A DNA stretch of 64,000 nt, taken from contig SFCB01000150.1 of assembly GCA_004367505.1 (NCBI GenBank), positions 1 to 64,000 of the forward strand, read 5' to 3'. The notes below the pieces were generated by a model. The model was not told where the DNA came from. It worked only from the letters and a program-made list of their open reading frames with translations, and did not search any database. Below are positions 2,932 to 6,213 of the stretch, one piece after another. Each line of letters opens with the position of its first letter. Positions within the stretch are counted from its first letter, which is position 1. The position numbers and the translations under genes are program-made. The stretch is from Chloroflexi bacterium OHK40. GTDB lineage: Bacteria > Chloroflexota > Chloroflexia > Chloroflexales > Chloroflexaceae.

Positions 2932-5900
2932 ATGTTCAAGCCCGTTGATACCAACGTCGCCTTCCCGCAGCTCGAGGAAGAGGTGCTCGCCTGGTGGGCG
3001 GCCAATCGGATTGTTGAGAAGTCGCTGGCCACCGGCGAGAAGCCCTTTGTTTTCTACGAAGGTCCGCCCACCGCCAACGGTCGCCCCGGGCTCCACCACG
3101 TGATCAGCCGGAGCTTCAAGGATATCATCCTGCGCTACCGGGCCATGCAGGGCTACCGGATCATCGGTCGCCGCGAAGGCTGGGACACCCACGGCCTGCC
3201 GGTAGAGATCGAGGTTGAGAAGAAACTTGGCTTCAGCGGCAAGCCCGACATCGAGAAGTTTGGCATTGCCGAGTTCAACAAGCTCTGCCGCGCGAGCGTG
3301 CTTGAGTATATCGATGAGTGGAAGAGCTTCACCAGGCGGATCGCCTTCTGGCTCGACGAAGACGGCTACTATACCTTCACCAATAGCTACATCGAGTCGA
3401 CCTGGTGGATCTTCAGCCAGTTCTGGCAGCGGGGGCTCTTCTTCCGTGATTACAAAGTGACGATGCACTGCCCGCGCTGCGGCACAAGCCTGAGCGACCA
3501 CGAGGTGAGCCTCGGCGCCCGTGACGATGTGGACGACCCGAGTGTCTATATCAAGTTCCGCATCACCGGGGCGACCACCCCCGGCAATGACTCGGCCCTG
3601 GCCGAGTCGCTCGCGGGCGCCTTCTTTGTGGCCTGGACGACCACGCCCTGGACGCTGCCGGCCAATGTGGCCCTGGCCGTCCAGCACGGCGCTACCTACG
3701 TGGAGGCGGCATTCGAGGGTGAGCGCTACGTGCTCGCCGAGGCTTTGCTGCGGCAGGTGCTCGGCGAGAGCGCCACGGTGCTGCGCACCTTCAAGGGGAA
3801 CGACCTGGTGGGCCTGCGCTACGAGCGGCTCTTCGCGGGGGTGCCCGGCCCCGGCGACAGGGTGGACCTGGACACCGCCTACCGCGTCGTGGCCGACGAG
3901 ATCGTCACCCTCGAAGACGGCACCGGGATTGTCCATATCGCCCCGGCCTACGGCGACCTGGAGGTGGGGCGGAAGCACGGCCTGCCTACGCTCTTCTCGG
4001 TAGGGCTGGATGGGAACGTCCTGCCCGAGTTCGCCGAGCTCGGCTTTGCCGGCAAGTTCTTCAAGCAGGCCGACCCTGACATCACCCGCAACCTGAAGGA
4101 GCGCGGCCTGCTGCTGAAGAGCGGGCGCGTGCGTCACTACTACCCCTTCTGCTGGCGCTGCGACACGCCGCTGCTCTTCTACGCCAAGCGCTCCTGGTAC
4201 ATCCGCACAACCGCCTTCAAAGCCGACCTGGTGGCCAATAACCAGCAGATCCACTGGGTGCCTGAGCACGTTCGTGATGGCCGCTTCGGCAACTGGCTGG
4301 CCAACAATATCGACTGGGCGATCAGCCGTGAGCGCTACTGGGGAACGCCCCTCCCGATCTGGTCCAATGCCGACGGGAGCTACCAGGAGTGTATCGGCAG
4401 CGTCGCCGAGCTGGAGCAGAAGACCGGGCGCTCGCTGAAGGATCTGGATCTGCACCGGCCCTACGTGGACGAGGTGACATGGGAGGACCCGCAGCACGGC
4501 ACCATGCGCCGCATCCCCGATGTGGCCGACGTCTGGTTCGACAGCGGCGCCATGCCCGTGGCCCAGTGGCACTATCCCTTCGAGAACCGCGAGCTGTTCG
4601 AGATGGCGCACCCGGCCGATTATATCTGCGAGGCGGTGGACCAGACCCGGGGCTGGTTCTACACCCTGCATGCGGAGAGCACCCTGCTCTTCGACCGGCC
4701 GGCCTTTCAGCACGTGATCTGCCTGGGCCACATCCTGGACGAGCACGGCCAGAAGATGAGCAAGAGCCGTGGCAACGCCGTTGACCCGTATGAGGTCTTC
4801 GCGCGCTTCGGCGTTGATGCCTTGCGCTGGTACCTCTTCGCCTCGGCCCCCCCCGGCAACCCACGGCGCTTCAGCATGGGGCTGGTGAGCGAGAGCCTGC
4901 GCAAGTTCTTGCTCACCCTCTGGAATACCTACGCCTTCTTCGTGACCTATGCCACGCTGGACGGATGGGTACCGGAAGCGAATCAGGGGGACGACGGGAC
5001 GCGCGCTGAGACCAGTGCAACCCGCACCCATGCCCTCTCTCTGGCCCCAATCGACAGGTGGGCGCTGGCCCGCCTGAACGCCCTGGTGCGCGATGTCACG
5101 CGCTCGTTGGAGGAGTATGAGGTCTACCCGGCCGCGCGAGCGATCGAGCAGTTCGTGGACGAGCTCTCGAACTGGTACGTGCGGCGCAACCGGCGGCGCT
5201 TCTGGAAGAGCGAGGCCGACGCCGATAAGCAGGCCGCCTACAGCACGCTCTACACCTGCCTGCTTACCGTGAGCAAGCTGGTGGCGCCCTTTACCCCCTT
5301 CGTGGCCGAGGCGATCTATCGCAATCTCACCGGGCAGGCGCAGGCCGAAGACGGGGCGCCCGTGGCAGAAACTGCACCCAGCGTCGCCGAGAGTGTTCAC
5401 CTGGCCCGCTGGCCCCAGGTCGACGAGGGGCTGCTCGACGAGCAACTGGTGGCTGACACCGAGGCCCTGCTTGCCGCGGTCTCACTGGGCCGGGCGGCCC
5501 GCAAGGGCGCCAACCTGAAGGTGCGGCAACCCCTGGCCGAGCTCTGGCTGCGCGCGAGTAGCCCGGCGGCCACCGAAGGCGTGCGTCGCTTCGAGGCCGA
5601 GCTGCGCGACGAGCTGAATGTGAAGGCGGTGCGCTACCTGGACGCCGCCTCCGACATCGTCGAGTATCGCCTCAAGCCGAACCTGCGGCTGGTAGGCCGG
5701 AAGTACGGCAAGCTCGTGCCAGGCCTCACGGCGGCCCTTAAGGCGCTGCCCGCAGAAGCCGCCCGCGCCGCTGCCCACGCGGTAGAGGCGGGGCAACCGG
5801 TGCGCCTGACGGTGGACGGGGTAGAGTTGGAGCTGCTGGCCGACGAGTTGCTGGTGGAGAGTAGCGCGCCCGAGGGCTACGCGGTGGCTGAGAGCGACGG

Positions 5901-6213
5901 GATGATCGTGGCGCTCAATACCACCGTCACTCCCGAACTGCGGCTTGAGGGCGCCGCCCGCGACCTGGTGCGTAGCGTGCAGGACGCGCGCAAGAGTGCC
6001 GGGCTCGCGATCGCCGATCGGATCATGCTCTTCCTTTCCGCCCCTGGGGACGGCGAGCTCCTGGAGCAGACCCTCACCGCCTGGGGTGACTATCTGCGCG
6101 GCGAGACCCTCGCGACGAGTCTGACCGTGGGCCCCGCTCCCGAGGGAGCCTACGTGGAGGAGGTGGAGTTCGGCGAGGGGGTGGCGACGGTGGGCCTGGT
6201 TCGGGCCGGATAG
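2932..6213 (+). CDS. ileS: Isoleucyl-tRNA synthetase, type 2 (IleS2)
   Basis: A 1093-residue class I synthetase that charges tRNA-Ile in the cytoplasm. The length and motifs match the Thermus/eukaryote-like IleRS2 type. The catalytic HIGH motif is altered: residues 53-56 read GLHH where HxGH is usual, a swap of first and third residues. KMSKS is intact (608-612). Zinc-type CPRC and CWRC pairs, the CP1 editing region and a long C-terminal anticodon-binding part with RRNRRRFWKS are present. The start is the ATG 5 nt after AGGAGG (2921-2926); a longer upstream frame would run through the T-box and is rejected. Expression is controlled by the T-box leader. IleRS2 enzymes are generally less sensitive to mupirocin than type 1. 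Confidence 0.97.
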   Translation: MFKPVDTNVAFPQLEEEVLAWWAANRIVEKSLATGEKPFVFYEGPPTANGRPGLHHVISRSFKDIILRYRAMQGYRIIGRREGWDTHGLPVEIEVEKKLGFSGKPDIEKFGIAEFNKLCRASVLEYIDEWKSFTRRIAFWLDEDGYYTFTNSYIESTWWIFSQFWQRGLFFRDYKVTMHCPRCGTSLSDHEVSLGARDDVDDPSVYIKFRITGATTPGNDSALAESLAGAFFVAWTTTPWTLPANVALAVQHGATYVEAAFEGERYVLAEALLRQVLGESATVLRTFKGNDLVGLRYERLFAGVPGPGDRVDLDTAYRVVADEIVTLEDGTGIVHIAPAYGDLEVGRKHGLPTLFSVGLDGNVLPEFAELGFAGKFFKQADPDITRNLKERGLLLKSGRVRHYYPFCWRCDTPLLFYAKRSWYIRTTAFKADLVANNQQIHWVPEHVRDGRFGNWLANNIDWAISRERYWGTPLPIWSNADGSYQECIGSVAELEQKTGRSLKDLDLHRPYVDEVTWEDPQHGTMRRIPDVADVWFDSGAMPVAQWHYPFENRELFEMAHPADYICEAVDQTRGWFYTLHAESTLLFDRPAFQHVICLGHILDEHGQKMSKSRGNAVDPYEVFARFGVDALRWYLFASAPPGNPRRFSMGLVSESLRKFLLTLWNTYAFFVTYATLDGWVPEANQGDDGTRAETSATRTHALSLAPIDRWALARLNALVRDVTRSLEEYEVYPAARAIEQFVDELSNWYVRRNRRRFWKSEADADKQAAYSTLYTCLLTVSKLVAPFTPFVAEAIYRNLTGQAQAEDGAPVAETAPSVAESVHLARWPQVDEGLLDEQLVADTEALLAAVSLGRAARKGANLKVRQPLAELWLRASSPAATEGVRRFEAELRDELNVKAVRYLDAASDIVEYRLKPNLRLVGRKYGKLVPGLTAALKALPAEAARAAAHAVEAGQPVRLTVDGVELELLADELLVESSAPEGYAVAESDGMIVALNTTVTPELRLEGAARDLVRSVQDARKSAGLAIADRIMLFLSAPGDGELLEQTLTAWGDYLRGETLATSLTVGPAPEGAYVEEVEFGEGVATVGLVRAG

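Follow-up and report, generated by a model that had tools for sequence, protein, structure and literature searches.

The ileS gene of Chloroflexi bacterium OHK40 (2932..6213, + strand) very probably encodes a housekeeping isoleucyl-tRNA synthetase (IleRS) of the eukaryote-like type 2, which is controlled by a T-box, carries the published non-canonical G/AxHH signature and is expected to be inhibited by mupirocin in the millimolar range. In this study, we analyzed the window of 64,000 nucleotides in which this gene is located (contig SFCB01000150.1, positions 1 to 64,000, forward strand), the draft genome, and related sequences from the same phylum and beyond. All coordinates refer to the window unless stated otherwise.

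Identification of ileS as a type 2 enzyme

The gene starts with an ATG at 2932, which is preceded by AGGAGGT, and its stop codon ends at 6213, resulting in a protein of 1093 amino acids. The protein matched TIGR00392 with 886 bits, above the curated cut-off of 621.4, and contains the Pfam domains PF00133, Anticodon_1 (PF08264) and DUF5915 (PF19302). DUF5915, the C-terminal domain of type 2 enzymes, covers residues 891-1088 (5602..6195, + strand; E 2.7e-43), while no IleRS1 zinc-finger domain was present among the Pfam matches. When ranked by similarity, the PDB entries with the best match were IleRS2 structures (1ile, 8c8u-w, 8c9d), namely those of T. thermophilus and P. megaterium, followed by eukaryotic cytosolic enzymes and then by IleRS1.

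The translation also contains the eukaryote-like signatures HYPFE, GPPT (with Thr, not Tyr, following GPP), ISRS and GHILD; NKIL is missing, and the GF position ahead of KMSKS is not occupied by Phe. The significance of these motifs was taken from PMC4861432, the roles of the mupirocin-contact positions from PMC10485003 and PMC4861432. At the latter, the protein has Ser59, where IleRS1 enzymes carry the mupirocin-binding Asn, and His600, where they carry the stacking Phe. In the tree, it grouped with the IleRS2 of T. thermophilus and P. megaterium and apart from E. coli IleRS1, the single IleRS1 row, which formed a long branch. An earlier note on this DNA had called the enzyme type 2, and PF19302, HYPFE, Ser59, His600, the IleRS2 structures and the tree placement all agree with this assignment. 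On the opposite strand, an open frame of 1036 codons (2335-5445, − strand) lies over ileS and is most likely a high-GC shadow ORF.

The swapped first signature

Residues 53-56 (3088..3099, + strand) read GLHH, encoded by GGG CTC CAC CAC within the translated context YEGPPTANGRPGLHHVISR, at the site where class I synthetases carry HxGH. This swap had been noticed before from the sequence and was confirmed by translation and alignment. The second class I signature is canonical, with KMSKS at residues 608-612 (4753..4767, + strand) embedded in QKMSKSRGN. The protein thereby falls within the G/AxHH sequence definition of the hyper-resistant IleRS2 group.

Probable T-box control of ileS

Control by a T-box, as also put forward in the earlier note, was supported by a leader that extends from stem I to the antiterminator (2493..2845, + strand). 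It matched the full model (1-219) of Rfam RF00230 with 67.1 bits (E 2.9e-14), which falls below the gathering score of 93 bits. The leader resembles that of T-box-regulated ileS (RF00230; cf. PMC2494555) in its anatomy, AUC specifier and terminator, but, unlike RF00230, has a long insertion that separates stem I from the antiterminator and is the probable cause of the low score. In nine of ten related loci a T-box is located ahead of ileS, and four of them pass the gathering score (L064, L168, L056 and L074; 95.6-104.5 bits).

The specifier codon AUC (Ile; 2584..2586, + strand), located in GAAG-AUC-ACC, corresponds to the invariant A105 T106 C107 of a ten-leader alignment. Likewise invariant in the ten leaders is the T-box sequence UGGUACC (2811..2817, + strand), which pairs with the tRNA acceptor end. 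Downstream, fold and conservation indicate a Rho-independent terminator hairpin (2832..2883, + strand) formed by GCCUCGUCCCC and GGGGGCGGGG with a U-run, which competes with the antiterminator. The region 2798-2892 folds at -49.9 kcal/mol (z -4.36), and GGGGCGGGG together with the U-run is conserved in the alignment. Judged from these elements, uncharged tRNA-Ile would pair with the specifier AUC and the UGGUACC bulge and would thereby favour the antiterminator over the terminator, so that ileS would be transcribed.

Copy number and probable housekeeping role

For the search for further ileS genes, the draft genome was used, which comprises 6.93 Mb in 301 contigs with a completeness of 100% and a contamination of 3.5%. 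One IleRS was detected in this assembly and no second ileS; the other matches resemble ValRS, LeuRS and MetRS. The view that this is the sole ileS thus held for the draft of 301 contigs, and the proposed housekeeping role is supported by the single gene, the T-box leader and the orthologues, which stand as single IleRS gene in relatives. Since nearly all related IleRS2 share the motif, GxHH is a working housekeeping state.

Two other readings of the gene were weighed. That GLHH is an artefact of assembly or sequencing can practically be dismissed, because GxHH was read independently in every near relative, i.e., at the aligned position of all homologues that were read from the organism's own family, its order and family f8 (L047-L078). 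An accessory resistance gene of the mupA kind, in place of the housekeeping enzyme, is also very unlikely. The NCBIfam models of MupA and MupB, related IleRS2 of staphylococci that confer mupirocin resistance, can be aligned to almost the entire protein (812.7 and 762.9 bits), but these scores are far under the cut-offs of 1900. Moreover, MupA and MupB are acquired plasmid-borne second copies, whereas no other ileS was detected in the genome searched, the orthologues in the same family and order are single IleRS genes, and a T-box leader precedes ileS in the relatives tested.

Predicted mupirocin resistance and catalytic mechanism

The link between the swap and hyper-resistance in type 2 IleRS, to which the earlier note referred, is published and was measured in other enzymes (PMC10485003, PMC4861432). 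According to Brkic et al. (2023; PMC10485003), G/AxHH in IleRS2 raises the Ki for mupirocin about 200- to 1000-fold. The D. radiodurans IleRS with ALHH has a Ki of 6.6 mM, and the motif was exchanged in both directions; the third His of G/AxHH can assume the catalytic role of the first His and, by modelling, clashes with mupirocin (PMC10485003). For the IleRS of Streptomyces griseus, a Ki of about 10 mM was reported (Cvetesic et al. 2016, PMC4861432), and this enzyme carries the same non-canonical motif, as stated in PMC10485003.

By analogy to the crystallized GVHH mutant of the P. megaterium enzyme, His55, the third motif residue, would take over the transition-state role of the absent first His, and it would also clash with mupirocin. 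If His55 acts in both ways, normal activation of isoleucine and inhibition only at millimolar mupirocin would be expected. A millimolar Ki of the enzyme and whole-cell resistance of the organism are thus predicted from the characterized relatives.

The enzyme corresponds to the G/AxHH IleRS2 of Brkic et al. (PMC10485003) in being type 2, in the swap of residues 1 and 3, and in its housekeeping role. Nothing essential differs from that group; here, X is Leu and the first residue is Gly. The S. griseus IleRS, with its millimolar Ki, is likewise eukaryote-like with the same motif, but S. griseus belongs to another phylum. A further actinobacterial homologue, from Rhodococcus (L221), combines GTHH in a lineage A context (see below) with KMSKH instead of KMSKS. 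The enzyme of the window is already explained by published work and is an ordinary, well-supported further example.

Distribution of the swap in the phylum

In pattern searches of 400 genomes of the same phylum, GPPxANG...H matched 177 and GPITANN...H 165, and GxHH or AxHH was found in almost all of the matches listed. An alignment of 155 rows, which include E. coli IleRS1, the organism's own ValRS and two PDB references, comprised 139 rows with GxHH, 5 with AxHH and 10 with HxGH, while the region was missing in 1. With almost all listed matches and 139 + 5 of the 155 rows being G/AxHH, the swap is the rule in this phylum sample, and any implied rarity found no support. In the tree of Brkic et al., 86 of 163 bacterial IleRS2 are G/AxHH, and the few Chloroflexi sequences in it are named there as a weak spot (PMC10485003).

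Two types of candidates were rejected. Matches to the first pattern in five genomes (G101, G221, G241, G097 and G188), considered as second ileS, were not IleRS motifs when read. For a natural HxHH intermediate, the pattern GPPxANGxxHxHH gave one match (L046) in 84,980 species genomes, which lies outside any IleRS frame and was regarded as chance.

Evolution of the signature in two IleRS2 lineages

The swap was found in two deep lineages of the IleRS2 tree, A and B. Lineage A, which includes the enzyme of the window, is characterized by GPPTANGxPGxHH and a canonical KMSKS, whose first Lys is kept in 90/90 rows having that region. In the tree, the IleRS2 of Thermus and Priestia, both canonical, fall together with this lineage. 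Two lineage A enzymes (L131, L164) have a canonical HIGH, are nested among GxHH relatives and share a Thr at position 59; they are candidate natural reversions. When all GxHH and AxHH rows of lineage A were forced into a single clade that excludes the HxGH rows, the resulting tree was rejected in the AU test (p 0.0005), so that at least one further motif switch must have occurred inside this lineage. This agrees with the multiple gains of G/AxHH and the reversion in Deinococcus-Thermus described by Brkic et al. (PMC10485003). Changes in both signatures were also seen in single enzymes, with ATHH and KASKS in L161 and GTHH and KQSKS in L162.

Lineage B shows GPITANNPMGxHH together with a change of KMSKS to xMHKS (L083, L079-L095, L179-L219). 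Of 61 sequences, all have the first Lys replaced, 59 have His instead of Ser at the third position, and the second Lys is kept in 59 and Arg in 2. Often, lineage B was the sole IleRS found, and many genomes seem to have no other. No IleRS1 was found among the genomes of the phylum sample checked; second IleRS genes consisted of lineage A plus lineage B, and further matches were weak and ValRS-like. In one locus (L167; G329, contig C96), both lineages are arranged in tandem (587-3838 and 3896-7150 of that contig), with 57 bases between the aligned stretches and 39% identity. Four genomes of one genus hold A and B on separate contigs (G364 with L168/L169, G358 with L170/L171, G340 and G346); these have 10.7-13.7 Mb and contamination scores of 11-17, so marker duplication is possible. 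No paper pairing MHKS with a synthetase was found in the open-access literature.

For lineage B, a deeply separate IleRS2 with both class I signatures rewritten, we tentatively propose, with more doubt than confidence, that, provided its catalysis is normal, it represents a class I synthetase that occurs naturally without either canonical signature, and in which the co-evolution of both motifs could be tested. The double-signature change and the A/B tandem are more unusual than the enzyme of the window.

As to its origin, the swap may have arisen for reasons other than mupirocin, either by drift in a tolerant active site or in response to other adenylate-mimicking inhibitors, with resistance as a by-product; we consider this a serious possibility, slightly short of an even chance. 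The swap is nearly fixed over the phylum sample and occurs in two deep lineages, and a few nested rows (L131, L164) lack it; near-fixation with nested absences is unlike recent selection by one antibiotic. Against this stands the large effect on the Ki for mupirocin measured in other enzymes (PMC10485003). The question concerns the origin of the motif and not the present biochemistry, and either answer is compatible with the window gene being a housekeeping, mupirocin-insensitive IleRS2.

Other features of the window and the genome

Just upstream of dnaA (22111-23508), 24-base repeats containing the DnaA-box-like TTATCCACA are located at 21799-21851, and this is the probable replication origin region. 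A cluster for uronate and pectin catabolism (38578-49519, − strand) comprises genes for UxaE, KduI, an oligogalacturonate lyase-like protein, GH88, an enolase-like enzyme and an ABC transporter. Elsewhere in the genome (G000, contig C22), genes of a type II photosynthetic reaction centre were found (L224, L225); of the encoded proteins, the M-type one closely resembles chain M of PDB 8ydm (530 bits). The organism is therefore probably phototrophic.

Implications

Across about 150 sequences, an altered form of the most conserved class I motif represents a stable housekeeping state throughout the phylum, and this sampling addresses the weak spot named for the published tree. By analogy to the enzymes measured so far, the phylum-wide swap would imply widespread intrinsic hyper-resistance to mupirocin in environmental bacteria, which are unlikely to have encountered the clinical antibiotic.
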